Below are positions 7,001 through 24,049 of a stretch of DNA of 24,193 nucleotides, piece after piece. Source of the stretch: a virus; the IMG/VR virus record IMGVR_UViG_3300025138_000345, positions 1 through 24,193 of that record; one strand, written 5' to 3'. Within the stretch, counting starts at the first letter, position 1, and each line of letters begins with the position of its first letter. Position numbers and translations under genes: made by a program. The notes under the pieces were generated by a model. That model saw only the letters and a list, made by a program, of their open reading frames with translations. It did no database searches and was not told where the DNA came from.

Positions 7001-9525
7001 GCCTCGCGGTTTTCTTCAATAGCTTTTGCCAGATAAACCCGCGTAAAGTATTCTTCTGCTGGACCTGTTTCCGCAGATTTTGCCTGGTCTCTTAATTCTT
7101 GAATGCGGATTAAATCGTCGTTTAGCTCACCTAAACGCGCTGCATATCTATCTTTGTCAGATTTACTTAAAATAACATCAATGTCTTTTTTTACTTGAAT
7201 TTCAACTTCATCAAGAGCCATTAGCTTTTTAGAAATCAAACCGCCTTTTTGAGAAATAACGCCAAATTCTACAGCCGGTATTCTAAACTTTTCGTAGAAG
7301 GACTTAACTTCCGTCGCCATTTCGTTAATTTCGGGAATGCTGTGTTTTTGACCAGTAATTAAAGTCTTAGAAACCTGATCCCTAAATTCCCCAATCGACA
7401 AGGCTTTGCTACCGTCTGCCTTGTTGCGAGTTACGGCTTTGTTAATGTTCATGCCAAGAAATTCGTTTTCATCAAGGCCAAGGTATTTGTTAAATATCCT
7501 GTCCTCAGACGCAATCATTGTATCAACTTCGCCGTTCCACGTATCTCTGCGAGAAAATACAGATGCGACGCCCATTCCGTCCGCGTCAGACCCACGCGCA
7601 AACCCGCCATCGTGAATAAGCAAATCCATTAATGTGCGTGTTTCTGCATTTAACGCATTTCTGTGAATACGTTTGTAGGGGCTGTCAGTTAAACGGGCCA
7701 ACGCTTCCAGCCTTGAGTTTTGCAATATTTGGTTATTTTCAGCGCGGTATTTACTAACTGCTTCGTCAGCTTCTTCTATAGCTTTGCGAACAAACCCAGC
7801 TTGGACTTTTCCAAGAATAGGTATTTCAACACCATCAATATTAACCTTAGCCTCCGCAGACCTAAGACGCTCCATAGATGCCGCTTTTTGAATTTGCCAT
7901 TCAGCAAGTTCGTTTGGTGTAGACACGTTTTCTGGTGTATTTCCCCGTTTGTACCATTCCAAAGTAGAGCGTTCATCAACTAGGATTTCCCCATTGTGAA
8001 CAGCAACGCCTTCGTTTTCTTTTAATTTGGTTCTAATTTCTGGCTTTAAATCTTTTTCGTCAACAAAACGTACTTTAGCTGTTTTGTCACCGCCAATATC
8101 CAAGTTGTCAGAATTGCGGGATATGCCTCTGCTTGCAGCAATTTGCTGCGTCATATCGTTAATTAACGTGTCTCGCGCACCTCTGCCGTACATGCCGCCA
8201 AAGCCACCGCCTAATAGCCCCGCAGCGCCCGTCGCAATGCCTACACGCGCTAAACTATCCATTCCTGTCGCACTAGGGTCATAACCAGACCTAAGTTGCT
8301 CTAAACCCGCTTCTACGGGAAAAGCCGCCGCCGAACTTTTTAAACCTGTTCTAATGAAATTTCCGCCAAAACCACGAATAGCACTTGCGCCAAAGCCAAT
8401 AGGCACAGCCATGGTAAGCAAACTGTCTGGATTAGACATTGCGCCTAAAAACATTGCAGACGCATGATTGCTTACTTGCCGCCGACGATTGCGTTTTTGT
8501 TCAGCCTTTATATTTGTAAGCAAGAAATTGTAATGCGGTCTGCTAATAGCTTTAGAAAGATACCTAGCTTCTGAAATTCCCAATCCTGTTCTTCTAGCTT
8601 CGGCAACACCATCAAACTCAGTATTTACATAACGAACTTTGTCTATTTCGTGTTTAACGTGCCGCACAATTCCTGCGTCTGTCCATTCGTCTTTAAACGT
8701 CTGCCACCATGTATCAGATAATTGCTGACCGCCGCCGCCAGACCCGCCTCTTGTTTTGTAACGGTCTTCGTAAGGTTTATTGCTTACAGGCGCTAATACG
8801 CCAGTATCACTATCATTATCTCCTTCGGATCCTTTTTCTAATTCAAGCCCTTTTCTCCAAGGGGGTATAGTTCCGCTAACTTCATCTGTTGGATAGAACT
8901 GCCTGTCTGGATTAAACCCTGCTGAAAAAGTTCGTAACGGGACATTTTCACCATGACCATTAGAACCAACAGTACTGCTTCCAGAAATGACAGGTGTACC
9001 GCTGTTTTCTAAAACACTTTGAAATTCATTTGCACCTACTTGTGCAGAGTTATTTGAAGTGCCGTCGTGGTATCCTTGACCTCGTTTTAAACGGTGTCTT
9101 TTTTTTCTATGATATGTGTCTTGCAAAACAGGCAAAGCTGCCCATTCCATAGAAAGTCTATTGCCAAATTCTTCTGTAGATATACGGCCTGATTTCCAAG
9201 CAGGATAACCTCGTCTATTTAACAAATGTAAATTTGCTTTGTCTTGAGTTTCTTCGTTATACAAATCGTCTAGATTAATTACGCCATTACGCACTAAACC
9301 AGACAGCGTTGTATAAACAATTTGCCCTGCGCCAGCAGCACTAAATTGTCTTTCTAATGGCAACTCGGTGCGATTTCTTTGTTGCCAATGCAAAACTTCT
9401 TTAACTGTCAATTCAGTCAAAGGTTTGTCGGGACGAATTTCCGTCCCATGGTTCCACATATTATAATCGCTTTCACCTTCGATGCTGTAGATAAAATCTA
9501 AAAGGTTGCGTTGCTGGGCGTCCAT
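4099..9525 (-). CDS. Giant internal virion / DNA-ejection protein (T7 gp16-like) with lysozyme and kinase-like domains
   Basis: 1808 residues, the third of three consecutive internal virion genes and the counterpart of T7 gp16, which forms the ejection channel across the envelope. Residues 1-135 resemble a GH104-type lysozyme: FIYSIEGE with probable catalytic E16, AAGAGQIV (59-70 region), then QDKA, NRRGYPAW and MEWAALP in family order. Residues 145-270 are a low-complexity Ser/Gly/Asn linker. Glycine-rich hydrophobic segments at about 365-395 and 425-450 may insert into membrane. Residues 550-1090 are mostly charged helices. Residues about 1140-1250 look kinase-like (listed separately). The C-terminal 400 residues are helical with hydrophobic stretches near 1400-1425 and 1665-1685. 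The start ATG overlaps the previous stop (TAATG). It is larger than T7 gp16, as expected from the extra domain. Parts of it resemble the polyvalent proteins of phages and conjugative elements. Confidence 0.9.
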   Translation of the reverse strand: MDAQQRNLLDFIYSIEGESDYNMWNHGTEIRPDKPLTELTVKEVLHWQQRNRTELPLERQFSAAGAGQIVYTTLSGLVRNGVINLDDLYNEETQDKANLHLLNRRGYPAWKSGRISTEEFGNRLSMEWAALPVLQDTYHRKKRHRLKRGQGYHDGTSNNSAQVGANEFQSVLENSGTPVISGSSTVGSNGHGENVPLRTFSAGFNPDRQFYPTDEVSGTIPPWRKGLELEKGSEGDNDSDTGVLAPVSNKPYEDRYKTRGGSGGGGQQLSDTWWQTFKDEWTDAGIVRHVKHEIDKVRYVNTEFDGVAEARRTGLGISEARYLSKAISRPHYNFLLTNIKAEQKRNRRRQVSNHASAMFLGAMSNPDSLLTMAVPIGFGASAIRGFGGNFIRTGLKSSAAAFPVEAGLEQLRSGYDPSATGMDSLARVGIATGAAGLLGGGFGGMYGRGARDTLINDMTQQIAASRGISRNSDNLDIGGDKTAKVRFVDEKDLKPEIRTKLKENEGVAVHNGEILVDERSTLEWYKRGNTPENVSTPNELAEWQIQKAASMERLRSAEAKVNIDGVEIPILGKVQAGFVRKAIEEADEAVSKYRAENNQILQNSRLEALARLTDSPYKRIHRNALNAETRTLMDLLIHDGGFARGSDADGMGVASVFSRRDTWNGEVDTMIASEDRIFNKYLGLDENEFLGMNINKAVTRNKADGSKALSIGEFRDQVSKTLITGQKHSIPEINEMATEVKSFYEKFRIPAVEFGVISQKGGLISKKLMALDEVEIQVKKDIDVILSKSDKDRYAARLGELNDDLIRIQELRDQAKSAETGPAEEYFTRVYLAKAIEENREAFKRQVVMPHMKQQPYIDTWVLGKKEAKELLEEATDALNRHKAKKFKTKAWHKQKARLQARETKLSLDYLSAPEYAQWTTVRASTAPKAIEARADKFIDDLLQEGEPSQLAQFREAHRPTFGRSRVFNIQNSLLLKDGPLGNGIADFIETDYNIVGKMYVDRMGPAIEMARTFARPADGVTWEQGLGEQIAKMKQNETVLFANRALDELPRRDAEIAKFEKELRKQLSKTSNAVSTTAANLLESNPLETAAIKVRWFDKFLGRGPISLKLKTDKSFEALSAQHPDLAKVAEVLYEAGFRDLKYLGEGVFKKVFESRGQVVRVTKFKENYGDSDFILAPEFRTRVGELYVEVMPKVNTRVSEAEYQLFLKDIEQAGYMPVDIHMGNVAKDTAGRVKAIDGFLINNVGQDVFDKFVLGRNTWKFSSGNEPFRFTIVSGSKGPRPTMVKKTGVSTTRFERLMPTKNIDTRIEAFIGRSKLQDADKLHGLFQAIDDKFGIPKQFIDPLQRIFFDTDRKIQKAAKDHASEMERDILNSVDRVVNRVYKNPDRIDNRAAMVLKDWSHLAFMGTSALSAVTEFGALIMRHGAARSFQAAFHDLDSALGQISKAGALEGHKSGAIMDIHMGTALSGFSETGVEAAMTSRPEFYLKVAANKYFLWNGLAAVTSRLKELDASIRVPDLLDKINLVADDLATPEEIAYLSRFGISKAMAKKMADEPMEEVDGMWMTNTDKWNDENLVRYFRAAVKQGNENTIIAATAADKPIISDGVVYLKRNAKVDTAAEAMGWEQQGDYWKVQSGLMALPFTFWNYSLAATNKILLANLDEPTAQRLSGIASILGLAYMVAAIKTDSNHWENMTLDQRLRRAIDQSGVMGVIHNYHDLAQGTAIGAFGVNPMPWGPKYGFEPTGTDAAFDLMGAGPSAARNLIGGTLSGDLDQASWGLPFRNYLFLKSFFDSLIDGYERNTAGLVN
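5776..6108 (-). other. Protein-kinase-like (Kinase-PolyVal-like) domain inside the ejection protein
   Basis: Residues about 1140-1250 of the 1808-residue protein show kinase-fold landmarks in order. There is a glycine-rich loop LGEGVFKKVFE (1145-1155) and a beta-3-like strand QVVRVTKF (1159-1166), where the usual lysine position reads Arg, with K1165 close by. A hinge-like strand ELYVEVMPKV (1187-1196) follows. The catalytic-loop-like VDIHMGNV (1220-1227) has D1221 and N1226 five residues apart as in eukaryotic-type kinases and aminoglycoside phosphotransferases. KAIDGF (1236-1241) has D1239 at the DFG position. Kinase domains are described in large polyvalent proteins delivered by phages and conjugative elements, which fits a protein ejected into the host. 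The domain is short, so activity is uncertain; it could be a divergent or inactive fold. Confidence 0.6.
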
Positions 9526-12500
9526 TATTTAAACCAATCTGGATTTTCTTGCTTGTAAGTTTCAAGCATTTTTTTGGCTTCCGGAGCTGTTATCTTCCAG
9601 CCGTTGTCCCTCATTTCAAGTATTAAAATTTCTATATGGAATGATGGAGATTGCCGTTGTTTTTCTGAGAAACCTGAAATTATTACATCCCGTAAATATC
9701 GACCATCATCATCATTTTTGTCCCAGAGTTCTGAAACTTTAATTTTAGTATCATTACCTTCAATCGTATTATTTAAAACAGTGTTAGCTCTTTTTGCTGA
9801 AATTGGCCTATCAACAACTAACGCTTCATCTTTTGCTGTTCCTCTATTTGCGCCAGTTTTGTCTTTACCAACGTATAGTTCAGCTGCGTGTTGCGACTTT
9901 TCTTGACCAGCAACTACACCACCAACAACTGCTTCTGTACCTTCACCAACAATATCAACAGTTGCTTTTGCACCAGCCATGAAATCAGCATCTGCTTTTT
10001 CAAGCATAGTGCTGTCGCTGTCTGCTGCACCGCCTTGATCGGTTGCATCGCTTACAGGAACAGCCATACCGCCGCCCATAAGTTTAAAGAAATTAAAGTC
10101 GCTATCAAAAATTGAACCGTCATTTATGTCGTTTGCCAAATCCTCAAATTGCTGGCTTGTAAATCGCTCTACTGCGGCTGTGTGATCTGCTAACGGTTGA
10201 TATGGTTCTTCTGGATTTATAACATTCCACAACCCAGCTTCGTCGCGCATTAAAATTCTGTAAGCTGGATTATCGCCACTGCTCGGCACATATTCCGTCA
10301 TGTAATGAACGCCAGCTACATAAAGTTCATTATCTTCAAAATCATCATACTTTGCACTAAAAGTACCAGATTTTAGAATTTCCTTAATTTTATGATCGAT
10401 AACCCCGTCAAGGATTGTAAATCCCATTTTTCTTGAGCCATAATCTTTTCTGTAAATTTCCGCTTCTTCATGCGTCATAAACAAATCAGCAGTGGCCATA
10501 TCTTCAACAGCTTCAACAACAGGCTTTTTAATATTTCGCATTGCCCATTTACCCAAAGCTTTCCAAGCTGTCGCTTCGGGAGGGTCTTTCATATACATAT
10601 CAGGCGCGTGCATAGTTCTGCGCGTTGTGTATTTGCTGCTTTCAAAACGACCAGCAAAAGCATTGCGGGTCATTTGCAAAGCTTCTTCTACTGGATTTCC
10701 ATGCTTGCTTTGTGCTTGCAATAAAAACGCACTTTTAAAGTAAATTGCGGCTTGCTGCATTTCAGACGGGTCTACAACTTCACCGTCTTGATGAAACGCT
10801 TTGTCAGGAAATATATGCTCAAGCAAACCTTTTGGCTGAGAAAGCCACGCAGCTACCGCGTTATCAATTTCATTTCCTTCAATACCAATTAACGTGCCAG
10901 CTTGGTTAGGGTTCCAGAAGTTTCGCCAAGTTTGGTCTGCTTCTTTCATGATAAATTTATCAAGCATTTGACCGTAAATAGCGTCGCCGTTTCCTTCTTT
11001 GTCTATTTCGCTTATTCTTTGAACATAACCAGTTGCTTGCTCTAGCGCATAATCAAAGCTGGAACCTTGATCGTGCATAATCTCAAGCATTTGCATAAAA
11101 GCGTGGCCTTCTTCGCCAAACGCATCAACAGTTACGTCTTTAACATTGCCTGTTAATCCAGAATTACCTTGTTCTTTAAAATCTTTGTAAAGCGTAAACA
11201 AATTAAAAGCTTGGTCGTGATCTAAGCTATGCTCCCAAGAGCGCAATGCTTCTTTAATTGCAGTTGGCACATTGCCATTATGTTTTGAAATTTCAACTAT
11301 TTCATGACGTTGTTTTTCTGTCATAGGAACAAGCTTGCCTTTTGCATTAGGCACCATTCCTGTTTTAAACATTTCCGCTGTAATTGGCATTTGTTTGCCA
11401 TTAACAATCGGCAATCCAATTTCTGCGCCAAGCCAAGTGTTGTAAAGAGGCGCAATTTTTTTATCTAACGGTATATCACCTTGAATTACTTGTTCTAATA
11501 ATCCTCTGTTTTCAATATCAGTTTGAGCTTGTTTTTCTCTTGCGTTGGCTTGTGAAATGTAAGTTCCAAGTAATGCTGCAAATCTATCGCCAGCCGCTTT
11601 GTTGTAAGTTTTGCCTAAAGCAAAATCGCCCGGAATTGTAGCGACACCTTCGTTCATTGGAAAAATAGCCGTCCAGTTTTCTTGAAAACCTTCTTCTATA
11701 TCTGGATGACCCATAATTACGTTATAATCTGGGAAAAAATTAGCTAACGCTTCTGCTTCCTTTTGACTTCTAGGCATTTCTAATGCGTGGCTAAGATTAA
11801 TTAAATCTTTTGCTTTAGCTGTCCTTGGATTAAGATCGGCATCTGCAAAAATACGAGCATGTGCTGTTGCATCTAACAGCGTTTGAATGTGTTTTTGCTT
11901 TTGGTCTCTAGCTAGAATATCTTCCTGTTCATTCATTATTCTAGTCATATAGCCAATCATATTAGCTCTAGCTAAATCTGGCTGTCCGCTAGCAATAAGA
12001 CCAATTAAATTCATTCTTGCAGACTTAATATAAGGAGGATAACTGCTGCGGCGAATGTCTTTGTCCAACAGCATTTGCGCTTGACCAACGCTAAACTGTG
12101 CATCTCCTAATTCTTTTTGTGCAATTGTTTGAAACGCACCTCTAAATTCTGGCGGTAATCCGTCTTCTAATTCACCTAAACTTGCAACGACAGCTTTTTC
12201 AAATCCTTCTAAATCGTTTTCATATTCAATCTGCGTTTCATCAATACGCATTTTTGCAGCCGTGCCGATTTCATCAATCATTCGGTCAGTAATACCCGCG
12301 TCATATGTTTGACGGGCAATGCGCCCCATTTCTGCCGCTCTGTTTTCGGGAATTTGAGGCGCACCAGTTTTAGGGTCTTTATTAAAGATTGCCTCCCTAA
12401 CCATTGCCTTGCCTTTAAGTTCAGCTTCTCCTGCAAGCATACGTCCCATTTGGCGAGAGGTTTCAATAATTCCCTCAGCAACATTACTAAGAACTTCGCC

Positions 12501-12578
12501 CATTGGGTTGTTAGGCATTTGGACAGGCTGGATAGAGCGTGTGTCTCTAACTTCAATTGGCTTACGAACTACGGGCAT
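9525..12578 (-). CDS. Internal virion protein (T7 gp15-like position)
   Basis: 1017 residues, mostly helical and charged, lying between the gp14-like and gp16-like genes; this position and size suit the second ejection protein, which in T7 forms part of the internal core and periplasmic tunnel. The N-terminus (MPVVRKPIEVRDTRSIQPVQ) is proline-rich, followed by helices with the segment NVAEGIIETSRQMGRMLAGE. A stretch near residues 830-900 is rich in Ala, Gly, Asp and Val (SDATDQGGAADSDSTM; AVVGGVVAGQ) and may be flexible or membrane-active. No enzymatic motif is recognised. The start has an AGGA site (ATAGGAATGACTAATG) and lies nine bases after the previous stop. Its stop overlaps the next ATG by one base (TAATG), suggesting coupled synthesis of the two large ejection proteins. 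The call rests on context more than sequence. Confidence 0.75.
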   Translation of the reverse strand: MPVVRKPIEVRDTRSIQPVQMPNNPMGEVLSNVAEGIIETSRQMGRMLAGEAELKGKAMVREAIFNKDPKTGAPQIPENRAAEMGRIARQTYDAGITDRMIDEIGTAAKMRIDETQIEYENDLEGFEKAVVASLGELEDGLPPEFRGAFQTIAQKELGDAQFSVGQAQMLLDKDIRRSSYPPYIKSARMNLIGLIASGQPDLARANMIGYMTRIMNEQEDILARDQKQKHIQTLLDATAHARIFADADLNPRTAKAKDLINLSHALEMPRSQKEAEALANFFPDYNVIMGHPDIEEGFQENWTAIFPMNEGVATIPGDFALGKTYNKAAGDRFAALLGTYISQANAREKQAQTDIENRGLLEQVIQGDIPLDKKIAPLYNTWLGAEIGLPIVNGKQMPITAEMFKTGMVPNAKGKLVPMTEKQRHEIVEISKHNGNVPTAIKEALRSWEHSLDHDQAFNLFTLYKDFKEQGNSGLTGNVKDVTVDAFGEEGHAFMQMLEIMHDQGSSFDYALEQATGYVQRISEIDKEGNGDAIYGQMLDKFIMKEADQTWRNFWNPNQAGTLIGIEGNEIDNAVAAWLSQPKGLLEHIFPDKAFHQDGEVVDPSEMQQAAIYFKSAFLLQAQSKHGNPVEEALQMTRNAFAGRFESSKYTTRRTMHAPDMYMKDPPEATAWKALGKWAMRNIKKPVVEAVEDMATADLFMTHEEAEIYRKDYGSRKMGFTILDGVIDHKIKEILKSGTFSAKYDDFEDNELYVAGVHYMTEYVPSSGDNPAYRILMRDEAGLWNVINPEEPYQPLADHTAAVERFTSQQFEDLANDINDGSIFDSDFNFFKLMGGGMAVPVSDATDQGGAADSDSTMLEKADADFMAGAKATVDIVGEGTEAVVGGVVAGQEKSQHAAELYVGKDKTGANRGTAKDEALVVDRPISAKRANTVLNNTIEGNDTKIKVSELWDKNDDDGRYLRDVIISGFSEKQRQSPSFHIEILILEMRDNGWKITAPEAKKMLETYKQENPDWFK

Positions 12579-12587
12579 TAGTCATTC

Positions 12588-13169
12588 CTATCCTGTAAAG
12601 AAACTTTTAAAATTACCCCAGCTTTGTTTGTAGCCATCAAACGTTTGTTTGCGCCAATCTTTGGGTTTCATTGCTGACTTTTTATCGTGATGATAAGTGT
12701 CAGAGTAGGTTTGTGCGCCTTCAACCAATGTATTTGCTGCTTTTAAATTGCCAGAAAGCCGCGCTGCTGCTGCATCCATTTGACCGCCAATCATCGCCAT
12801 TGCGCCTTGGTTTTTGTAATTAAGCTTTTCAATATCTGTGTTTGCAGACAAACGAGACAAAGATTTTTGCGTGTCTTTTTTCATGCCTTTATCAATTGAA
12901 TTAAAAGACGCCATATCCAAACCAGAAAACATTGCTGCTGCTATATTGTCTTGAATTTGCAAAGCCATTGCCGATCTAATGTCGGATTCGCCTTCAAATT
13001 TACGAGCATCAGCCAAAACGCCCATCGCATCCATTTGAGCTTTTTCAAATTTAGCTTTGGTCATCGCGTTTTGAGCGTTTATTTTACCAGCTTGATATTG
13101 ACCGTAGGCACCTATAGCGGCGTTGCCCATCATCATTTTAGATTGCGCTTGTGAGTTGCTTTCACACAT
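12588..13169 (-). CDS. Internal virion protein B (T7 gp14-like)
   Basis: 193 residues. The N-terminus MCESNSQAQSKMMMGNAAIG resembles the MC-start and small-residue hydrophobic N-terminus of T7 gp14, the first ejection protein, which inserts in the outer membrane. An alanine-, lysine- and glutamine-rich helix follows (QYQAGKINAQNAMTKAKFEK), and the C-terminus is basic and aromatic (KPKDWRKQTFDGYKQSWGNF). It lies directly after tail tubular protein B and before the gp15-like gene, as in T7-type genomes. A GAGGA site (GTGAGGACAGATAATG) precedes the start. It is of similar length to T7 gp14. Assignment combines N-terminal pattern and gene order; the middle of the protein has no diagnostic motif. 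Confidence 0.75.
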   Translation of the reverse strand: MCESNSQAQSKMMMGNAAIGAYGQYQAGKINAQNAMTKAKFEKAQMDAMGVLADARKFEGESDIRSAMALQIQDNIAAAMFSGLDMASFNSIDKGMKKDTQKSLSRLSANTDIEKLNYKNQGAMAMIGGQMDAAAARLSGNLKAANTLVEGAQTYSDTYHHDKKSAMKPKDWRKQTFDGYKQSWGNFKSFFTG

Positions 13170-13178
13170 TATCTGTCC

Positions 13179-15563
13179 TCACACATATACATTGAGAACA
13201 GCCCCACGCATGACTAATCGCCCTGCTGTGTTGCCCTCTATTTTTAAAGTAGGATCGCGGCCCCAAAGACCGATGTAATATTCTCGCCAATCATCTACAG
13301 GAATAACTGCCAAATCATCGGCTACGTCTAATCCGGTGAGAACATCGACGCCTTGTATTGTTCCTGTTGCTGCTTTTTCCCAGCTTATAGTTGCTGAGAC
13401 TAAGCGCTGCTGTTGACCAATGCGCGTACCTGTTTGAATGCCAGCAACGGGAGCATGAAACTCTACGTTCCAACTCATAGGATCACCAATAGTTACGCTG
13501 GTTACGCTGGTGTCATTAATAAATGCTTTTGTGGACGCAGCCACAGACACATCTCCGTATGTGTAATAGCCAAAATACGCTTGCTGCACCCTGCCATCAA
13601 TGTTGCTTGCAGTCCAAGAGGTTGTTGCTGAACTGTTTGTTAAAACCTCGGAGAAGTCTGTTGTAATGTAATTCTCGCTTTCAGTATCAAACCTAAGAAT
13701 TACATATTCATTAGCACCCGACGATGTTCCGTTTACGTCTAAATTGACTTGCCTTTTGCCTACTGCAAACAAGCGCGTTCCTAGCGTAGCAACAGAAGTA
13801 AAACTGCCGTAATCTAAAGTCCAACGCATCCAGCCAAAGCTATCATCAGCACGACTAGAGTGTAAAACCAACATTGCACCGTCTGTTTGATTTGCAAAGA
13901 GCAAGTACGGAGTTGTAATAATTGCAGAGGCCCCGTCAAATACTGTAACATCTTTTGGTTCCTTTACCCAATCTGGAACAACAATTGAGGCTGGCAATGA
14001 CGAGTATTCTGTAATGCGTGTGTCAGTGGCAAATTCACGAATAACCAACCCGTTAAAATCAACGTAAAATACACCGCCATCAAATTTGTGTGGTTGCGTG
14101 TATGACGCGCCATGTTCTGTCGCGGACACAATACGCACCGAGGCTTGAGATATAGCTTCAGTTGTACTTCCTGGGACATAAATTTCGTCGTTATCTGTAA
14201 AAAACATTAAGTCATATGCTGCAACAACATGTCTAATTCTGGATTGGTTTCCAATGCCGTACAAAGCTATTGCTTCAGTTACATTACCTGTGCCTAAATC
14301 AAAGTTTCTAAATTGACCGAATTGCGATCCCCAAGCTGCATTTGGCAAAGAGTTTGTACCCGCCATCCAAAGTCTTCGCTCATGCACCGCGCATGTTGTA
14401 GGCCAACCTCTTGCTGTAGAAAATGCCGGTTCTTTTAAGCCTTTAATTCCAGACAACACAAAACACAAAACACTAGCGCCGCCAGCTAATATGTCATTGG
14501 TCGCATTTGCATTTCCATAAACTTCAAAAGTATCAAGACTTATTATTCTTGAAATTGTGTAAGCAGCGCTAATGCCTGATGATGTGCTAGTTGAAGCAGT
14601 ATTAAGAGGTGCTAATGAGGCTGTAGTTAATACTAATCTTGCATCATCAGACCTAGACAATCCTGCAAAATACACTTTATCGCCCACACTAAGCCCGTGG
14701 TTAAAAAAAGAAACCTCGACTAATCTTGAGTCTTTTTTAAGGTAAAAAGGATCTGTATCTAATTTTTTTTGAACGTCAGTTATAACTGTTACTCGCGCTT
14801 CTCTAGCGCCAATTACCGACGTTATTTTATATTCGCCGTCTAATAATCTAACGTGTGTATTTACATAATCTGCTGTAAACAAATCTTGGTTAGATGTTAT
14901 TGTACCTGTTCCGGTTAATGTACTTGCAGTTGGAACGTTTGGAAATGTAGCGCTGTCAATTAACTCAACGCCCTGCAAGCGTGATGTATAAGCTTGAGAA
15001 GTTCCTGCTGACATCCAAACATTTGCAATAATTTCTAATGAGTCATCAACAAATTGATAAAACGGCGCTTGCTGTGTACCAGTTTGCAAATCAAACCCAA
15101 AATCAAAATTACTTAACGCAAATGTTCCATCAGTCCTGCGTCTAATAATTTTAGTGTTAAATGTTGCGTCAGCTAATATTAGGCTGTCGCCTTCAGACGC
15201 TATAGATATGTAATCTACGTTTGATGTTGTTAACCAAGATTGCCCACTATATCGTATAACCATTGTAAGCGCGTCAGTGCTTGGTGTGTAAGTGTGTATT
15301 TCAATTTCTTCTTCTGATGGTTTAAACACAATTAAATATTGATTGGTGTCTGAATAGTACCAAGGCTCAATTCGTATTGCAGACGTAAAACCTTTTATAT
15401 ATTTAGTTCCCCATCTGCGCCCCAGCCGACCATCGCCTAAAACCATCATGTTATTAGCTTCGCGCACAGAAGATGTGTACGCTTGCGCGTCTTGCCTTAT
15501 TCTAAGACCTGATCCCGTTCTGCCTTTGCGAAAATCTGCGCGGAAATCTGTTAATGTTGGCAT
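13179..15563 (-). CDS. Tail tubular protein B (T7 gp12-like nozzle protein)
   Basis: 794 residues, the expected size for the gp12-type nozzle of short-tailed phages, which forms the distal tail tube and anchors the fibres. The N-terminus has the typical layout: a short start (MPTLTDFRADFRKGRTGSG), then SVREANNMMVLGDGRLGRRWGT, in which an early N-rich helix and a G-R-R-x-G-T turn are characteristic. The rest is beta-rich, with many V, T, S and aromatic residues. Later blocks such as AVHERRLWMAGT and IRHVVAAYDLMFFTDNDEIY are typical of the family's beta-propeller-like middle. It starts at 15563, sharing one base with the stop of tail tubular protein A (TGATG), with an AGGAATATCTG upstream region. 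The next gene follows nine bases after its stop. Confidence 0.9.
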   Translation of the reverse strand: MPTLTDFRADFRKGRTGSGLRIRQDAQAYTSSVREANNMMVLGDGRLGRRWGTKYIKGFTSAIRIEPWYYSDTNQYLIVFKPSEEEIEIHTYTPSTDALTMVIRYSGQSWLTTSNVDYISIASEGDSLILADATFNTKIIRRRTDGTFALSNFDFGFDLQTGTQQAPFYQFVDDSLEIIANVWMSAGTSQAYTSRLQGVELIDSATFPNVPTASTLTGTGTITSNQDLFTADYVNTHVRLLDGEYKITSVIGAREARVTVITDVQKKLDTDPFYLKKDSRLVEVSFFNHGLSVGDKVYFAGLSRSDDARLVLTTASLAPLNTASTSTSSGISAAYTISRIISLDTFEVYGNANATNDILAGGASVLCFVLSGIKGLKEPAFSTARGWPTTCAVHERRLWMAGTNSLPNAAWGSQFGQFRNFDLGTGNVTEAIALYGIGNQSRIRHVVAAYDLMFFTDNDEIYVPGSTTEAISQASVRIVSATEHGASYTQPHKFDGGVFYVDFNGLVIREFATDTRITEYSSLPASIVVPDWVKEPKDVTVFDGASAIITTPYLLFANQTDGAMLVLHSSRADDSFGWMRWTLDYGSFTSVATLGTRLFAVGKRQVNLDVNGTSSGANEYVILRFDTESENYITTDFSEVLTNSSATTSWTASNIDGRVQQAYFGYYTYGDVSVAASTKAFINDTSVTSVTIGDPMSWNVEFHAPVAGIQTGTRIGQQQRLVSATISWEKAATGTIQGVDVLTGLDVADDLAVIPVDDWREYYIGLWGRDPTLKIEGNTAGRLVMRGAVLNVYV

Positions 15564-16177
15564 CAGATATTCCTGTGAGTGCGACGGCTTTTAATAAACA
15601 TTTTAGTATCTAAACGCGGCGAGGTTCTGCCCTGCGCGTCACGCGATCTAGCTTTAATCATCATAGCTTCGCCCTGCTGAGCTAAAAACGCTGCTGTTTC
15701 TTTATCTTGAGTAATTGGCATACAAATAGCGGATGCAAGACAAAGAACATATGCTCTGCGGAAATATCCGGGCCAACTTTCTGCGCCGACTGTGTTTGTG
15801 TATTCAACAGTAACATTATCAATAGAATTAGCGTCAACATTAACCGCAATTTTAGGCCCAAATCTGTCAAAATCAGCAATAAAATCGCCTACATAAACGG
15901 TTTGAATAGTAATCGCGCTAGTAGGCAATTGATATAATCCCGTCCACGGAACAGGTGGTGTTTCTACTAATCTAGCAAGAATGGCTCTGTCTCGCGCAAA
16001 TCGCCAAGGATAAGCCGACAATTCATCTTCAAGTATGTCAGAATACAGCCTGTTAATAGTTTTTGCGGGAAGTGTTTGCTCTGTAAAAGAAGCAATAGAC
16101 GGAACGCCCAATTGCGCTAATGCCGCGTTTGCTACTTTCAAAGATGAATTTGAAACAGATAATGGCGTAACGGTCAT
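15563..16177 (-). CDS. Tail tubular protein A (T7 gp11-like gatekeeper/adaptor)
   Basis: 204 residues, an adaptor between portal and nozzle. Diagnostic blocks are KVANAALAQLGVPSIASF at the N-terminus, INRLYSDILEDELSAYPWRF (gp11-type proteins have a run of helix ending in pW-x-F/A) and WTGLYQLP. The C-terminal third, with FRRAYVLCLASAICMPIT, is helical. The frame is open to 16339, inside the capsid gene. ATG 16177 is chosen because it follows an AAAGGA site seven bases upstream and the protein family pattern begins there. The stop and the next start share a base (TGATG). The preceding 97 bases carry two stem-loops after the capsid gene. Confidence 0.88.
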   Translation of the reverse strand: MTVTPLSVSNSSLKVANAALAQLGVPSIASFTEQTLPAKTINRLYSDILEDELSAYPWRFARDRAILARLVETPPVPWTGLYQLPTSAITIQTVYVGDFIADFDRFGPKIAVNVDANSIDNVTVEYTNTVGAESWPGYFRRAYVLCLASAICMPITQDKETAAFLAQQGEAMMIKARSRDAQGRTSPRLDTKMFIKSRRTHRNI

Positions 16178-16198
16178 TTCAAATCCTTTAATTAGGTT

Positions 16199-16230
16199 GG
16201 GGAAGCGGTAGGAAGAAAACCCGCTCCCCC
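16199..16230 (-). terminator. Strong stem-loop downstream of the capsid gene
   Basis: On the minus strand GGGGGAGCGG and CCGCTTCCCC form a 10-base stem (one G-T pair) with a 12-base loop (GTTTTCTTCCTA). It lies about 45 bases after the capsid stop. There is no T run after the stem, so it may be a weak terminator, as after T7 gene 10, or a 3' stabiliser of the capsid transcript, rather than a full stop. The tail genes beyond it still need read-through or a promoter. Confidence 0.45.
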
Positions 16231-16237
16231 AGTGTTT

Positions 16238-16267
16238 AGCCAGCCCAGTCTGCCACCAGAACTGGCT
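16238..16267 (-). other. Second, weaker inverted repeat after the capsid gene
   Basis: On the minus strand AGCCAG and CTGGCT (6 bases) flank an 18-base stretch that itself contains CCAGTTCTGG-like palindromic sequence overlapping the left arm. It begins eight bases after the capsid stop codon and is followed closely by the stronger stem-loop at 16199-16230. Alternative foldings are possible. It is probably part of one structured 3' region. Confidence 0.3.
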
Positions 16268-16274
16268 GAACCAT

Positions 16275-17117
16275 TTAGGAAGGCGCTGGCGACAAAGTAG
16301 AAACTTTATACATGCCACTGTCTTCAATAATGGTTGCACCGAGCGACATTGAAGAAACGCACGACCAAGCAGAACGAGTGTTCTCGTAATCCCAGATTGT
16401 GCTGATTTCTTTGTTTATGCCGTGTCCGACTGCTGTGCGGTGCCACGCAAGGTTAGTCGCAACATTGGTTGCTGCAACGCCGTGTGCAATATTCGGGAGA
16501 GGCATCCAAAGAGTACCCATCCAGAATTTTGCAGTAAGCGATCCCTTAAAGGGCAAGTTTTCTGAGCTGACATAATCAGCGTTTGCAAACTCTGGAACCT
16601 TTAAAAATTGCGCCCATGCGTAGGGGTGCAGCGCACAGAAACGATTGCCATCGTCAGGCACTTCGTTGACTGAGAATTTAGTCACAACAGACATTGCTGT
16701 GTTAAAATCCCATACGCCTGTAGCATCACCAGCGTCAGTAGAGTTTGCGCCAGTTTCCATTGCTGCAATTAGAACTTCGTCTGTCTTTTTGCCAAGAGCA
16801 GCAGCGTGAGCGCGCGCATGTGCGCCTTTTTCATCGATGTTCTCTTTGAGCATATCCAGATCATCGATCAGCGTTGGCACGTAGTAATCTGCCATAGTTG
16901 CAGAAACTTTGCTGTGCGCTGGATCAAGAAACGTGTGTGTGCCATTACGAGTTTTAGTATTTGCCGACAGTGTTCCAAATTTTTGGAAATGCACAGTCGA
17001 GCCTTGCACAGTACCTTTGCGGGTAGTGTTAGCTAGGCGAGAACCATACTGACGATACAGTAAGTGTACGTCCGCGTTATATTCTTCAATAAACGCATTG
17101 GAGATTGTAGATGCCAT
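16275..17117 (-). CDS. Major capsid protein (HK97-fold, small podovirus type)
   Basis: 280 residues, the shell subunit. It directly follows the scaffold and GNAT genes and precedes the tail tubular genes. The N-terminus (ASTISNAFIEEYNADVHLLY) and the block RKGTVQGSTVHFQKFG, followed by SATMADYYVPTLIDDLDMLKE, are typical of the small capsid proteins of podoviruses in the Phage_capsid_2-like group. The later FCALHPYAWAQFLKVPEF and the FWMGTLWMPLPN region are the A-domain strand-helix elements commonly seen in this group. The gene has a GAGG site eight bases upstream of ATG (CTGAGGCTAAAAAAATG) and an unusually long leader for this window, with an inverted repeat. Two stem-loops follow it. No decoration domain is fused. 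Confidence 0.88.
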   Translation of the reverse strand: MASTISNAFIEEYNADVHLLYRQYGSRLANTTRKGTVQGSTVHFQKFGTLSANTKTRNGTHTFLDPAHSKVSATMADYYVPTLIDDLDMLKENIDEKGAHARAHAAALGKKTDEVLIAAMETGANSTDAGDATGVWDFNTAMSVVTKFSVNEVPDDGNRFCALHPYAWAQFLKVPEFANADYVSSENLPFKGSLTAKFWMGTLWMPLPNIAHGVAATNVATNLAWHRTAVGHGINKEISTIWDYENTRSAWSCVSSMSLGATIIEDSGMYKVSTLSPAPS

Positions 17118-17136: not shown

Positions 17137-17274
17137 TTACAGGAACAAAGCGGGTGTTCCTCTAATCAACATCGCGGGTATTCCTTGCGGAGCCGTTTGC
17201 GATCTTCGGGGCCGACAAAAAAACCGCTGCGCTAAAAGTATTTCAAAGTCAACTTCTACGCCGATAAAACTTTC
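17137..17274 (-). other. Open frame with protein-like content but no normal start, between GNAT and capsid genes
   Basis: In the 131-base gap between the acetyltransferase and capsid genes, the frame one base ahead of the GNAT frame is open for 45 codons up to TAA at 17137-17139. It reads through IGVEVDFEILLAQRFF and ends in the segment GIPAMLIRGTPALFL, with an internal GIPA/GTPA near-repeat. The only usual start within it is a late ATG at 17178, which would give just 11 residues. An AGGAAAG lies just before the ATC codon at 17265. It could be a gene using an unusual start, a +1 frameshift extension of the GNAT protein at TTT-T, or a remnant. I list it as unproven coding sequence. Confidence 0.25.
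17141..17161 (-). promoter_or_regulatory. Perfect 7-base inverted repeat in the capsid-gene leader
   Basis: On the minus strand AGGAACA, a 7-base loop (CCCGCTT) and TGTTCCT form a perfect hairpin ending 23 bases before the capsid ATG and clear of its GAGG ribosome site. No T run follows. It may mark an RNA processing site or stabilise the 5' end of the abundant capsid transcript. It overlaps the end of the unexplained open frame at 17137-17274, so its symmetry could also be a coincidence of coding sequence. Confidence 0.35.
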
Positions 17275-17698
17275 CTACGTCATTAAAACCCATACGTTCG
17301 TAAAATTTTCCCGTTCTTTCTGCTGTAATTCCAGTAGAAACGCCCAGGCTAATAACTTTAGCGCCTTTTGCTTTTGCCCATTTTTCATAAGCTTTCAGCA
17401 ATCTCATTGCTGCGCTAGTTCCTCTGTAAAAGGGCGTAACGTACAGTGTTAAATCAGACGCCAGCAAATCCTTGCCAAACCAATGCTCACAAACCAAACC
17501 GACAAAAAGGCCAGCAATGTCGCCGTTTTTATCTACTGCAACAAAGCCGCAGAAATTGTCCTGCTCAATTTGCTGCCAAACGGAAAACATTTTGTTTTTG
17601 TCAAAGTCCAAGTCACTAAAATACCCTTCTTGGTGCAATTGCATTCCAAGAACAGTACAAACGCCTACATCTTCGGGGCGCATTTCTCTAACAATCAA
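17249..17698 (-). CDS. GNAT-family N-acetyltransferase within the head operon
   Basis: 149 residues, a complete single GNAT fold that transfers an acetyl group from acetyl-CoA. The first strand (IVREMRPEDV, 2-11), the central strands (GFVAVDKNGDIAGLFVGLV, 51-69), the acetyl-CoA loop VTPFYRGTSAAMRLLKAYEKW (87-107, with the R-G-x-S-A-A pattern), and the C-terminal KFYERMGF (131-138) are in family order. TTG 17698 is chosen over a later ATG because the first GNAT strand begins there and it makes a TTGA overlap with the scaffold stop; AAGGA lies close upstream. It sits between scaffold and capsid genes, so it is made in the late phase. The substrate is unknown: a virion protein, a host protein or a small molecule are all possible. 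Similar GNAT genes occur near the structural genes of some other phages. Confidence 0.88.
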   Translation of the reverse strand: MIVREMRPEDVGVCTVLGMQLHQEGYFSDLDFDKNKMFSVWQQIEQDNFCGFVAVDKNGDIAGLFVGLVCEHWFGKDLLASDLTLYVTPFYRGTSAAMRLLKAYEKWAKAKGAKVISLGVSTGITAERTGKFYERMGFNDVGKFYRRRS

Positions 17699-18438
17699 AG
17701 TCCTTGCTGCTTAGAATACATTTCCCAATTACGGCGCACCATAGCCGTATATTCAGCGTTTTCACCAAATCTGGGATCAGCTTGCATTTCCCTAATGCCA
17801 TCGCGGGTTAAAGGCTTGCTTTGCTGGCTTGTTTGAATATCGTCAGGCGCAAATCCACGATCTGCGTTTTTATTCATTATATATTCAAAAAATTCGACGC
17901 CACTTGCGTCCGTCATAATATTGGACACTTTTTCAAAATGCTTTTCGTCAACATTGGCAGATACCCATTTGTTGACTTTTTCAATTCTGGTTTCTGCATT
18001 TTTGCCCAGCTTTTCAACTTCTGCGTCAAAACTGGTTTGTGTTTTTGCGTAAACGTCAGAAATCAGGCTTTTAAAAGCATCTTCTCCAACATTGTTGGTT
18101 TTGGCCCATTCTCGTAAAGTTTGATCTACTTCTTCTGGCGGTGACTGAAATCCTTCGGGATACGCATAGTCATCAAGGCTTTCTGGTACGCCCAAAGATT
18201 TAGCGTAATCTGACGCAGCTTCCGCTTTGACTTCTTCACGCAAATCATCTGTTTTCTTTGAATATGCCCCGTATAATTCGTTATACGCTTTGGCTTGATC
18301 TTCGGGCGAATTGAATTTCTCCAATAACCAATCTGGACGTGCGTTATCTGCCGATGCGGGTGCTTCCGTATCGGGCTGGAACATCGACCCAGTATCCTGT
18401 GATGTTTCTTCTGATGTAGTGGCAGCTTCTTCAGTCAT
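17695..18438 (-). CDS. Scaffolding / capsid assembly protein
   Basis: 247 residues, strongly acidic and helical, upstream of the capsid gene, as scaffold proteins usually are. The N-terminus is a low-complexity acidic stretch (MTEEAATTSEETSQDTGSMF). Then comes RPDWLLEKFNSPEDQAKAY, typical of podoviral scaffolds, and SLGVPESLDDYAYPEGF, a segment shared by many phage capsid-assembly proteins. Several helices follow to a short basic C-terminal end (MVRRNWEMYSKQQGL), the usual capsid-contact region. The ATG comes immediately after the previous stop (TAAATG) with an AAGGA site. Its stop overlaps the GNAT start (TTGA). It is expected to be inside the procapsid and lost before or during packaging. 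Confidence 0.85.
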   Translation of the reverse strand: MTEEAATTSEETSQDTGSMFQPDTEAPASADNARPDWLLEKFNSPEDQAKAYNELYGAYSKKTDDLREEVKAEAASDYAKSLGVPESLDDYAYPEGFQSPPEEVDQTLREWAKTNNVGEDAFKSLISDVYAKTQTSFDAEVEKLGKNAETRIEKVNKWVSANVDEKHFEKVSNIMTDASGVEFFEYIMNKNADRGFAPDDIQTSQQSKPLTRDGIREMQADPRFGENAEYTAMVRRNWEMYSKQQGL

Positions 18439-18975: not shown

Positions 18976-19250
18976 TTCTTTTTCCCATAGTTTTCTGACC
19001 ATTTATCCAAAGCTGCACGACGATTATGATATTCCCCCACTGTAAATTTATGAGGATCTCCTGCTTTAAGGCTTTCAACTGTCGGCGCATTTTTTTGAAG
19101 GTTTGAATACATTTTACCGTGTTGGTTCATGAAGTTTCTGCCTTCAGACGAAAAATAAGTAGTTAGCTTAGGAAACCCGCTTTTTCGCATATATTTAGCG
19201 TTGTGGCCTTCCTTCGACGTTCCTACTCTGCTTTTTCTAACTCCGCTCAT
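18972..19250 (-). CDS. Small basic protein downstream of the portal, unknown
   Basis: 92 residues, strongly basic, beginning MSGVRKSRVGTSKEGHNAKY and ending WSENYGKKK. It includes an aromatic/basic middle (KSGFPKLTTYFSSEGRNF) and no membrane segment. Start ATG 19250 overlaps the portal stop (ATGA), and an AAGG site lies nine bases upstream inside the portal gene. Position and charge suggest a small head or head-completion protein, but I do not recognise the family. Its stop overlaps the micro-ORF start. Confidence 0.7.
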   Translation of the reverse strand: MSGVRKSRVGTSKEGHNAKYMRKSGFPKLTTYFSSEGRNFMNQHGKMYSNLQKNAPTVESLKAGDPHKFTVGEYHNRRAALDKWSENYGKKK

Positions 19251-20803
19251 TGCATCAGACCTTGTTGCTGTGGCGCTGCTGCTTGCGCTTGTTCCATTTG
19301 CGCTTGCTGCATCATTTCAGCTTGCGCTTGCATAGACTTCATTATTTCTGGCGCAGACTTATAAAGCTTGGTTTCCAAACCCATGCGCTCCTGCATCCAA
19401 GTGTGCAATTCTTCCAGATTATACATTTGGGTTGCAGCTTGCGGCCCAAACATTTGAGCGCGGATTTGAAAGTCCTGCATTAACTTTTGTACGTCTTGCC
19501 CGTGTTGAGCTTGCGCTAAAGGAGAAATAGCTCTGATTTGAATAGCGCGACCATTTACAACAGGTAACTGAATGTCGCCGCGTTTTTCTAAAAGATACAA
19601 AGCTCGACGCATGTAAGGCTGAATAAATTCATAGAACACTCGCGCAAACCCCGCAGAGGTGCGGTGCGCTAAATCAGCCATACGCTCTGAAACTTCATAA
19701 GCTGTGGCTGGCGTTTTGTTGGGATCAGACAGCATATCATTATACATGGCACGTTTAATGTTTAGGCGCTGATCGCCTAACACTACGTCTTGCATATTAA
19801 AATTGCCTGTGCTGCCTGTAATTGGCTCAAGCCCACGGCTTCCAATTTCCTTAGTAATAATAGTCCCTGGCAAAAGAGAAATATTGTCAGCGTTTACAGT
19901 GCCTTCGTTGTCTGTTTGGTACATTCCAACAATCGACATTGCTGCGTTTTCCAAAATCATTTCCACCATTAGGTTAGTGGTTCTGATTGCGCCCATAGCG
20001 TTAAGCAGGGGACCGCGCCCCCAAGTTTCTCCCGCTGCCGTAGACCAGCGAAATGCTATAAATGGATTAGACCCTGCGCCTTTGGTTTTACGCACTTGCA
20101 GGATTTCACTGTGATTTTCGCACACAACTACGCTGTAATGGCATTCTTCATCTGCTGTATAATCGCGGTATGTATATTCAATAATATCCAGTTCTTTATC
20201 CGCACTATTCGTTATGTCCGAATAGGTTTTCATCATCTGCTCGGACTTCATATCGGGATAGCGAATAGGCAAATGCTGGGCTTTGACTTTTTGGCAACGA
20301 TAAACGCCGCCAATCATATCATCGGCTCCACGCTCAATATAAACGTCTGTTATTGGAATTGCGCGATGGTGAAACGCACTATCGCCTTTGCCTTCTTCAA
20401 ACAAAAGAACGCCCGTAGAAATAGCCATATCGTGTAGGCTTTCGGCGGTTTCTTGGGCAAAATTAGAGTTCCAGATTTCTTCAAACACAAACTTATTAAT
20501 TTCGTCTAAATCACGATTGACAGCTTTTTTATCCCTTGGATCAATCATTGAAGACGCATCAAGTTTAACAAACTCGGTAAACGGCGGCATTAAGCCAGCT
20601 TGCATTCTGGACACAAATTCTGACACAGCATTTGCGCCAGTTTCGTCAAATATGTCTTCTGCTTTATCTATAGGATTAAGCATGTGAAAACGCTTACGGG
20701 CTGGCATAGTTAGACGCAAAGCATCGTCGTATAGACCTTCTAGCCTTTGCCTTTCCGCTTTTGCGTGATTGCGGCGTTCTACGATTGTTTTAGCATCCAT
20801 CAT
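19247..20803 (-). CDS. Portal protein (podovirus head-tail connector)
   Basis: 518 residues, the expected size for the podoviral head-tail connecting protein, a dodecameric ring through which DNA enters and leaves. The N-terminus IVERRNHAKAERQRLEGLYD then RLTMPARKRF is typical of the family. Later blocks include GANAVSEFVSRMQAGLMPPF, FHHRAIPITDVYIERG, FIAFRWSTAAGETWGRGP (a strongly conserved family segment) and TPATAYEVSERM. The last 40 residues are rich in Gln, Met and Ala (MQAQAEMMQQAQMEQAQ), as in many portals. The gene begins seven bases after the preceding stop, with ATGs at 20803 and 20800; no strong ribosome site is seen. Its stop is within the next ATG (ATGA). Confidence 0.93.
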   Translation of the reverse strand: MMDAKTIVERRNHAKAERQRLEGLYDDALRLTMPARKRFHMLNPIDKAEDIFDETGANAVSEFVSRMQAGLMPPFTEFVKLDASSMIDPRDKKAVNRDLDEINKFVFEEIWNSNFAQETAESLHDMAISTGVLLFEEGKGDSAFHHRAIPITDVYIERGADDMIGGVYRCQKVKAQHLPIRYPDMKSEQMMKTYSDITNSADKELDIIEYTYRDYTADEECHYSVVVCENHSEILQVRKTKGAGSNPFIAFRWSTAAGETWGRGPLLNAMGAIRTTNLMVEMILENAAMSIVGMYQTDNEGTVNADNISLLPGTIITKEIGSRGLEPITGSTGNFNMQDVVLGDQRLNIKRAMYNDMLSDPNKTPATAYEVSERMADLAHRTSAGFARVFYEFIQPYMRRALYLLEKRGDIQLPVVNGRAIQIRAISPLAQAQHGQDVQKLMQDFQIRAQMFGPQAATQMYNLEELHTWMQERMGLETKLYKSAPEIMKSMQAQAEMMQQAQMEQAQAAAPQQQGLMQ

Positions 20804-20809
20804 GTTAAA

Positions 20810-21097
20810 TCACGCTGCAAAGAAAGAACGGCTAGAAAACAAACCGCCATTGCCCTTAAATTTATTGCTTGTTGCCATTGCTCCGCGACGAGAAGCGTAT
20901 TCTTCATTTCTTGCTGATAAAGCTGCTGTACTTGATTTAGCGGCTTCCGCATCTGCTGCATTTTTAGTTTCTTCTGACGCTTTTCTTGCTGCTGTTGCTT
21001 GGCGATTAGCTGCTTTTTTAGCTTGTTTTGTTGAATGAACAGTAGCACCAGCACTAGCTGCTGTTGCCATAGCCATCATTGTTATTGGTTCACACAT
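20810..21097 (-). CDS. Small MC-start protein upstream of the portal
   Basis: 95 residues. MCEPITMMAMATAASAGATV is followed by an alanine/lysine-rich helix (KQAKKAANRQATAARKASEE) and a glycine/aromatic end (GNGGLFSSRSFFAA). The first half resembles the N-terminal half of gp14-type internal virion proteins: Met-Cys start, small-residue hydrophobic patch, A/K/Q helix. It is too short to be a complete one. A strong GGAGG site precedes ATG. The preceding protein also begins MC and ends GLxxxRxFF, so the two may be related. A virion-associated role is inferred. Confidence 0.7.
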   Translation of the reverse strand: MCEPITMMAMATAASAGATVHSTKQAKKAANRQATAARKASEETKNAADAEAAKSSTAALSARNEEYASRRGAMATSNKFKGNGGLFSSRSFFAA

Positions 21098-23411: not shown

Positions 23412-23777
23412 TTATCTTATCCCTGCTCGTCTTGCTCGTAGGCGGTTTCTGTTTAAATCAGCCTTCTGTTTTTCAGAAAGCATACTCATAATTTTGCGCG
23501 GCGCTCCACGCGTGACCTTAACTTCATGCCCAGATGCCCGAACACACCAAAAGCCATCCAAGTCAAAAAACCCGCCAGCCATCTTAAACAAACAACCGTT
23601 AGGCTTTCTTTCTGTTTTCGCAGAAGTCTTAACGCCCTGCTTTCTTGCCTCAATACTCGCCTCATACTTTACACGGCTAACTAACTGACGATCACCGCGC
23701 ACAGACATAACTGGCGGCTTAAATACTGCGATCTTTTGCTGGGGAACAACAGGGGGTTTGTGTGAAAAAAATGTCAT
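23412..23777 (-). CDS. Basic protein of unknown function
   Basis: 121 residues, strongly basic (notably the last 25: SEKQKADLNRNRLRARRAGI). The N-terminus is proline-rich with a near-repeat (HKPPVV and FKPPVM). A middle segment CLFKMAGGFFDLDGFWCVRA reads as two short strands and may be a compact beta fold. No membrane segment. Start ATG 23777 overlaps the stop of the previous gene (ATGA). The basic C-terminus suggests nucleic-acid binding. I do not recognise the family. Confidence 0.7.
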   Translation of the reverse strand: MTFFSHKPPVVPQQKIAVFKPPVMSVRGDRQLVSRVKYEASIEARKQGVKTSAKTERKPNGCLFKMAGGFFDLDGFWCVRASGHEVKVTRGAPRKIMSMLSEKQKADLNRNRLRARRAGIR

Positions 23778-24049
23778 TCCTCAGCCATTTCCGCACCTAA
23801 AGCCAAATACCCCATGCCATCACGATTACTGTCCTCATGATAACCGTTCATCAGCCGACTAACCTTTAACAAAAACAACATATAAGTTACGTCATACGGC
23901 GTAAATTCCGTCCCCTTATACATAGTCCACAACTTCGCTATCTTGCCAAAACTCTCGTCAGGTGAACCATAAGTCGTTTGCCTCGGCCCCGTAATTAATT
24001 CAGCAGCCTCGCGTAAAGCTTCCTCGCCCTTACCCAGCATCTTGTTCAT
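23774..24049 (-). CDS. DUF6378-like protein
   Basis: 91 residues. The pattern RQTTYGSPDESFGKIAKLWT, then YMLFLLKVSRL, and the closing DSNRDGMGYLALGAEM matches the DUF6378 domain common in tailed phages (Y-G-x-p-x-x-n-f, l-x-K-x-a-R, then a D-x-x-G-Y-x-x-l helix). The all-helical layout with acidic residues recalls nucleotide pyrophosphohydrolase-type folds, but that link is my inference and no activity is claimed. The ATG has a GAGG site seven bases upstream and overlaps the end of the previous gene by 20 bases; the stop overlaps the next start (ATGA). Confidence 0.7.
   Translation of the reverse strand: MNKMLGKGEEALREAAELITGPRQTTYGSPDESFGKIAKLWTMYKGTEFTPYDVTYMLFLLKVSRLMNGYHEDSNRDGMGYLALGAEMAEE

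Follow-up and report, generated by a model that had tools for sequence, protein, structure and literature searches.

A GNAT acetyltransferase gene in the slot of a T7 gp13-like gene between scaffold and capsid in a clade of marine podoviruses

The virus record IMGVR_UViG_3300025138_000345, analysed over its full 24,193 nucleotides (the window), carries a gene for an acetyltransferase of the GNAT family within a podovirus morphogenesis module. The module of this 24.2-kb record lies on the minus strand in the order terminase, portal, scaffold, GNAT, capsid and tail proteins. Relatives of the window carry a homologue of T7 gene 13 in the same slot between scaffold and capsid, and the simplest history is a single exchange of the gp13-like gene for the GNAT in the window clade. 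Because the two kinds of protein share position and predicted fold and exclude each other, we infer a shared role in assembly, and the GNAT has probably taken over the gp13-like assembly role after a single in-place replacement. The features concerned are as follows.

17249..17698, minus strand: GNAT acetyltransferase gene (phrog_1249, PF00583), 149 amino acids, TTG start, assigned by profile and slot comparison
17695..17698, minus strand: TTGA, in which the GNAT start codon overlaps the scaffold stop codon, read from the sequence
17701..17705, minus strand: AAGGA, Shine-Dalgarno-like, read from the sequence, 2 nucleotides 5' of the GNAT TTG (a short spacing)
17695..18438, minus strand: scaffold gene, upstream of the GNAT (T7 capsid-assembly family PF05396, 3.6e-8; Pfam)
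16275..17117, minus strand: major capsid protein gene, downstream of the GNAT (PF19821, 2e-49; Pfam, PHROGs)
19247..20803, minus strand: portal gene (PF12236; Pfam), used as the query for slot-blind sampling of relatives

The initial annotation had described a complete GNAT whose TTGA start overlaps the scaffold stop and which lies upstream of the capsid gene, and sequence and profiles confirm all of this. The window protein matches PF00583 at 5.1e-11 and 43.3 bits, over the curated cut-off of 20.7, and the acetyltransferase family phrog_1249 at 6.3e-33; neither the protein nor its record matches PF11090 or phrog_308 among the Pfam and PHROGs profiles. The TTG start and the stop codon are kept in 10/10 GNAT genes of the lineage (5 distinct at the DNA level), with AAGGT in place of AAGGA before the TTG in L015. 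The ratio of nonsynonymous to synonymous substitution rates (dN/dS) was 0.051, 0.081 and 0.077 for the window gene against three relatives and 0.102 between two of the relatives, compared with 0.096 and 0.101 for the capsid gene. Conserved start and stop, profile matches and low dN/dS therefore establish a genuine gene under purifying selection and exclude a chance frame. The TTGA overlap suggests translational coupling of the GNAT to the scaffold. Furthermore, an AlphaFold2 model of the protein shows a GNAT fold with a predicted local distance difference test score (pLDDT) of 86.6 and 665 matches in the PDB at E<=0.001, the best being a polyamine acetyltransferase. In the aligned GNATs, Arg92 is kept in 12/12 rows and Tyr133 in 11/12, CRP-810 having Phe; we take Tyr133 to be the catalytic Tyr and the stretch YRGTSAA to be the acetyl-CoA loop, and presume the usual GNAT role for Arg92. 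The last small residue of the loop departs from the usual motif, and activity is a prediction only. Judged by its sequence and model, the protein looks like a normal, canonical GNAT for which acetyl transfer is predicted.

The occupancy of the slot was followed in viral contigs. A scan with the GNAT returned nine near relatives (87-99% identical) and two distant ones; in 9/9 near relatives the gene stands directly after the scaffold and before the capsid, which is cut by the contig end in two. A scan with the capsid returned 16 loci (L023-L038) that have capsids 78-80% identical and lack the window-type GNAT. Their scaffold-capsid interval is 557-587 bases in all 16 and holds an open frame of 183-188 amino acids. 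These slot frames are T7 gp13 homologues, as phrog_308 matches of 2e-18 to 3e-20 indicate for the three scanned as proteins, and phrog_308 is present in 16/16 of the records. Pelagibacter phage Hodr, the nearest isolate (36% capsid identity), also carries a gp13-like gene in the slot, whose product matches phrog_308 at 1.8e-26 and PF11090 at 1.2e-4 and 22.8 bits, slightly below the cut-off of 25. A scan with a single slot protein recovered only itself and one relative.

Sampling blind to the slot gave the same picture. Relatives were drawn by portal alignment (the best 80 of 551, 42-98% identical), and the occupants of these 80 loci were called with local profiles: 60 are gp13-like, 6 are GNATs and 14 show neither, the contig in these 14 ending at most 1,103 bases from the portal frame with no capsid seen. 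Among the 66 loci reaching the slot, 60 thus hold a gp13-like gene and 6 a GNAT, with none holding both and none empty; the 60 loci with a capsid divide into 55 and 5, again with none holding both. Clustering at 90% portal identity yields 20 clusters, namely 18 gp13-like, one GNAT and one left without a call. In a tree of 30 portals the four GNAT rows form one clade (support 100/99), whose sister is the gp13-like L037 (support 94/91), and the occupant label requires one change. The GNAT-bearing records G000, G005, G006 (32.8 kb) and G009 gave no match to phrog_308 or to the slot profile.

In-slot exchange, mutual exclusion in the searched records, a shared predicted fold and purifying selection are thus observed. 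The initial annotation called the GNAT locked between scaffold and capsid genes; a lock to the capsid is not supported. Relatives with capsids 78-80% identical do without this GNAT, family GNATs lie elsewhere in other podophages, and the survey of co-occurrence with capsid type that it proposed finds capsids of this kind accompanied by a gp13-like gene as well. Best read, it is the slot that is locked and not the gene, the occupant having been exchanged. Free movement of the gene, which that annotation had named as counting against a link with assembly, holds in part: the family moves between phages, whereas in this slot there was one entry, after which the gene was kept.

Homology of the slot proteins to gp13 does not depend solely on PHROGs, since a profile built from the slot proteins of the lineage alone finds T7 gene 13 at 2.5e-6. 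An AlphaFold2 model of a gp13-like slot protein has a predicted GNAT fold (pLDDT 83.5) with 505 PDB matches at E<=0.001. Polyamine acetyltransferases top the PDB lists of both models, but no substrate is deduced from the lists because very many GNATs match. The gp13 family (PF11090, phrog_308 and the overlapping phrog_4177) therefore resembles the window GNAT in its slot, in close relatives as well as in Hodr, and in its predicted fold, and differs in lacking any direct sequence match and in its residues. By eye, Leu or Ala stands at the place of the catalytic Tyr in 31/31 aligned slot proteins, a matching of columns that presumes correspondence of the last helices, and the gp13-likes have no recognisable acetyl-CoA loop. 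The exchange may accordingly have put an enzyme in place of a non-enzyme.

The function of gp13 itself is described in conflicting terms, Pfam titling it "probable scaffold protein" and PHROGs and RefSeq an internal virion protein. A role in virion morphogenesis has been suggested for it (PMC6775973, citing Kemp et al. 2005, in the accessible text). VO98_195, the homologue of gp13 in the T7-like phage phiPsa17, is absent from the printed virion proteome table (PMC4517105), which would fit a factor that, like a scaffold, departs before the particle matures.

Both families occur at several places in podophage genomes. The phrog_1249 GNATs of Achelous, LL11, BD1 and SP6 lie a short way ahead of the portal, separated from it by one or two small genes, and those of SIO1 and CRP-810 beside tail and large internal-protein genes. 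The gp13-likes of T7, HTVC010P and ZP6 come after the genes for tail proteins (the T7 gene lying between 12 and 14), and those of the window lineage lie between scaffold and capsid. The window therefore adds one more position to those of the GNAT family, and this position was already in use by the gp13 family. The podophage GNATs closest in kind (SP6 gp28, SIO1, Achelous, LL11, YeP5 and Piluca) belong to the same profile family as the window gene and also lie in virion modules, with phrog_308 not found in the same record; they stand before the portal or beside tail and internal-protein genes, whereas the window GNAT stands between scaffold and capsid. ORF12 of Alteromonas phage ZP6 (L043:9765-10163), printed as a GNAT and discussed together with Rac, the GNAT of phage LUZ19, in the accessible text of PMC8515928, matches phrog_4177 and phrog_308 and follows the tail tubular genes, so that it looks like a gp13 homologue.

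Mutual exclusion extends beyond the slot. Across 58 records (39 + 19), phrog_308 was found in 28, phrog_1249 in 22, both in none and neither in 8; the count is inflated, as 27 of these records are contigs from the lineage of the window itself. In the 26 named phage records W01-W26 the figures are 10, 10, 0 and 6, and zero overlap would have a probability of 0.0015 under independent draws, by our own arithmetic on a non-random sample in which 5 of the 10 GNAT records were chosen for their GNAT and T7 and SP6 were chosen by name. Fifteen phage records sampled by portal alone gave 6, 4, 0 and 5, too few to prove exclusion on their own. One of these four phrog_1249 records, Vibrio phage CKB-S2, has a weak match (2.1e-7) far from the portal, which is probably another kind of GNAT. 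Baldr, one of the eight records with neither family, has phrog_4470 upstream of the portal. The locus tags of the Pelagibacter phages Hodr and Baldr (OQ414635.1 and OQ414636.1; L002 and L044) appear swapped between the two records.

The mechanism we favour is that in this lineage of marine podoviruses the slot between scaffold and capsid would encode a morphogenesis protein of GNAT fold homologous to T7 gp13. In the window clade a canonical GNAT from a different family, phrog_1249, would have taken the place of the gp13-like gene in a single event at the same site, with the scaffold stop as the junction on one side and a point shortly upstream of the conserved element in the capsid leader as the junction on the other. 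The GNAT would then be produced along with the scaffold and capsid proteins and would perform the gp13-like job in head or core assembly. That it does so by acetylating the scaffold or another virion protein, beyond structural help, is a guess. The link with assembly that the initial annotation drew from position is supported as far as a role in assembly goes: 60/66 slot-covering loci have a gp13-like occupant there, and gp13 is titled a probable scaffold protein in Pfam or suggested to act in morphogenesis in the accessible text of PMC6775973. In the same source a parallel with gp13 had already been suggested by Bischoff et al. 2019 for the cobavirus GNAT pc40, which they proposed may be the counterpart of T7 gp13 and act in the morphogenesis of the virion. 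As its accessible text presents it, that proposal was argued from the domain and the position beside internal virion proteins and includes no in-slot exchange between close relatives. A literature search within the PMC library on gp13 with acetyltransferase, GNAT or morphogenesis found the cobavirus suggestion and not this exchange.

Several observations weigh against a take-over of the gp13-like role. BLASTP gives no match between the GNAT and gp13-like families, and the profile-profile comparison of the two is weak, with a probability of 41.5%; what connects the families is therefore slot, fold and exclusion. Catalytic residues that the GNAT keeps appear to be missing, through loss, from the gp13-likes, so that the biochemistry of the two may differ. 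The exchange is a single event only. Finally, none of the 8/58 records with neither family matches PF00583 or the slot profile, and a GNAT-fold gene is therefore not established as required by every such phage.

Among the alternatives, one is a host-takeover enzyme of the Rac type, in which the GNAT would acetylate a host protein and stop host transcription, its place among structural genes only setting the time of expression. Rac (LUZ19 gp28) is a GNAT that acts on the host, with cleavage of the RNA polymerase alpha subunit and transcription shutdown (PMC7552054, accessible text). Like the window GNAT it adjoins structural genes of a podophage, and LUZ19 has no phrog_308 match, so that mutual exclusion of a GNAT and gp13 is seen in that phage as well. 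Rac belongs, however, to phrog_3986, which matches phrog_1249 only at 4.9e-4, is 18% identical to the window protein and lies before the portal, whereas the window gene lies after the scaffold. Its effect is also genus-specific, as LKA1 has a GNAT at the corresponding place and alpha stays intact (PMC7552054, same text). Rac thus neither sets the role of the phrog_1249 family nor excludes a host role for the window GNAT, but host takeover leaves the replacement of a gp13-like gene in the same slot unexplained, and we consider it improbable.

Equally improbable in our estimation is that the GNAT is an accessory gene, of moron or metabolic kind, which arrived here by chance and has no link with assembly, the gp13-like gene having been lost by coincidence or its loss being compensated elsewhere. 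GNATs are indeed common in phages (253/50,697 phage records match the window protein), phrog_1249 matches occur also in 14/14 cellular control genomes, and the GNATs of RCA phages were interpreted by their authors as host-metabolism genes (PMC6918029, accessible text). Yet the gene stands at the very place that in the rest of the lineage always belongs to a gp13-like gene, it is under capsid-like constraint and kept in 10/10 records, and no gp13-like gene was found elsewhere in the GNAT-bearing records searched.

It is more doubtful still that no exchange took place and that the GNAT is the gp13-like gene native to the lineage, strongly diverged or returned to canonical form. The same slot, the same predicted fold and the single clade would fit such a history. 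However, BLAST finds no match between the window GNAT and the slot protein of the sister L037, whose portal is 86% identical, while the GNAT is 28-32% identical to those of unrelated podophages; slot proteins of L037-like relatives are 42-50% identical among themselves; and in L036 and L037 the slot gene starts inside the scaffold end and runs into the leader element, whereas the GNAT does neither. A GNAT toxin of a toxin-antitoxin pair does not fit, as the adjacent genes are scaffold and capsid and neither is an antitoxin gene.

A natural replacement of gp13, in place and among close relatives, by a canonical GNAT would offer a handle on the function (by complementation) and mechanism (by a catalytic mutant) of a poorly understood protein. 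GNATs within the virion modules of podophages, which have at times been classed as host-metabolism genes, may likewise be assembly genes. A wider proposal is that head or core assembly of the T7 type has long included an acetyltransferase step, carried either as a live GNAT or as a degenerate one (gp13), the window clade having exchanged the degenerate kind for the live kind; T7 gp13 would on that view be a pseudo-acetyltransferase whose job can be done by an enzyme, with the scaffold or an internal virion protein as partner or substrate. This proposal is speculative and seems unlikely to us.

The element that borders the exchange lies between the GNAT stop and the capsid start, and its counterparts in relatives stand directly upstream of the capsid.

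17138..17217, minus strand: conserved capsid-leader element, 80 nucleotides, candidate structured RNA
L089:7617-7696, L126:5333-5414 and L002:5899-5977: capsid-leader element in relatives

It is overlapped by the last slot codons in relatives such as L037 and intergenic in L089. By eye it consists of two nested helical parts, and one internal loop, C opposite AYAM, recurs in both. In an alignment of 32 distinct rows (A7), 14 of the 17 pairs vary at both positions, and covariation is 0.363 against 0.184 in shuffled and 0.045-0.120 in slid alignments. Divided by side, the 21 other rows score 1048 against a shuffled mean of 248.6, whereas the 11 window-side rows show no covariation (18 against 26.6) and have the inner part of the outer helix mostly unpaired. 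One measure in this test, further pair types, opposed structure (23 against a shuffled mean of 27.0). A structure model matches 60/60 lineage loci with a capsid, many of the matches being its own training rows; it occurs once per record in 13/39 records (12 contigs and Hodr) and in 0/25 other named phages. A hold-out model (R2) was built from 15 rows of the distant lineage taken from the 32 of A7; its alignment, A9, excludes L130, L126, L114, L101 and L103, owing to an apparent one-base shift in the 18-row A8, and includes L108 and L106. It recovers 5/19 held-out lineage sources in place (L130 at 9.8e-5, L114 at 0.017, L002 at 0.024, L101 at 0.042 and L126 at 0.19), no window-side source and 0/11 other phage sources. 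Rfam gave no match at gathering scores, only a chance-level snoRNA (E 4.7), alifold detected no structure on the raw alignment, and single-sequence folding of four members was no better than shuffles (z -1.11 to 1.04). A literature search at the level of listings found nothing fitting such an element. An RNA structure in the sister lineage is well supported by these comparisons of sequence, while the window leader appears to keep sequence conservation and the inner hairpin only; the element is a candidate structured RNA that would control capsid expression.

Other genes of the window were also noted, all on the minus strand. The tail tubular A frame (15563-16339) extends about 54 codons into the end of the capsid gene, and since the match begins only at residue 55 in many relatives, the true start is probably downstream. 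In the terminase-portal interval, 20810-21097 encodes a short protein with weak gp14/internal-virion-protein matches (PF24072 0.0014, phrog_805 1.1e-4), and another short protein, at 12588-13169 in the usual place, has a weak match to the T7 gp14/internal-virion-protein family (phrog_418, 0.0065). A frame of 1017 amino acids (9525-12578) without a PHROGs match lies upstream of one of 1808 amino acids (4099-9525) that matches phrog_16310, a family of unknown function, at 4.2e-17. An amidase endolysin (PF01510, 6.2e-12) is encoded at 67-501 and a DUF6378 gene (2.8e-24) lies at 23774-24049.
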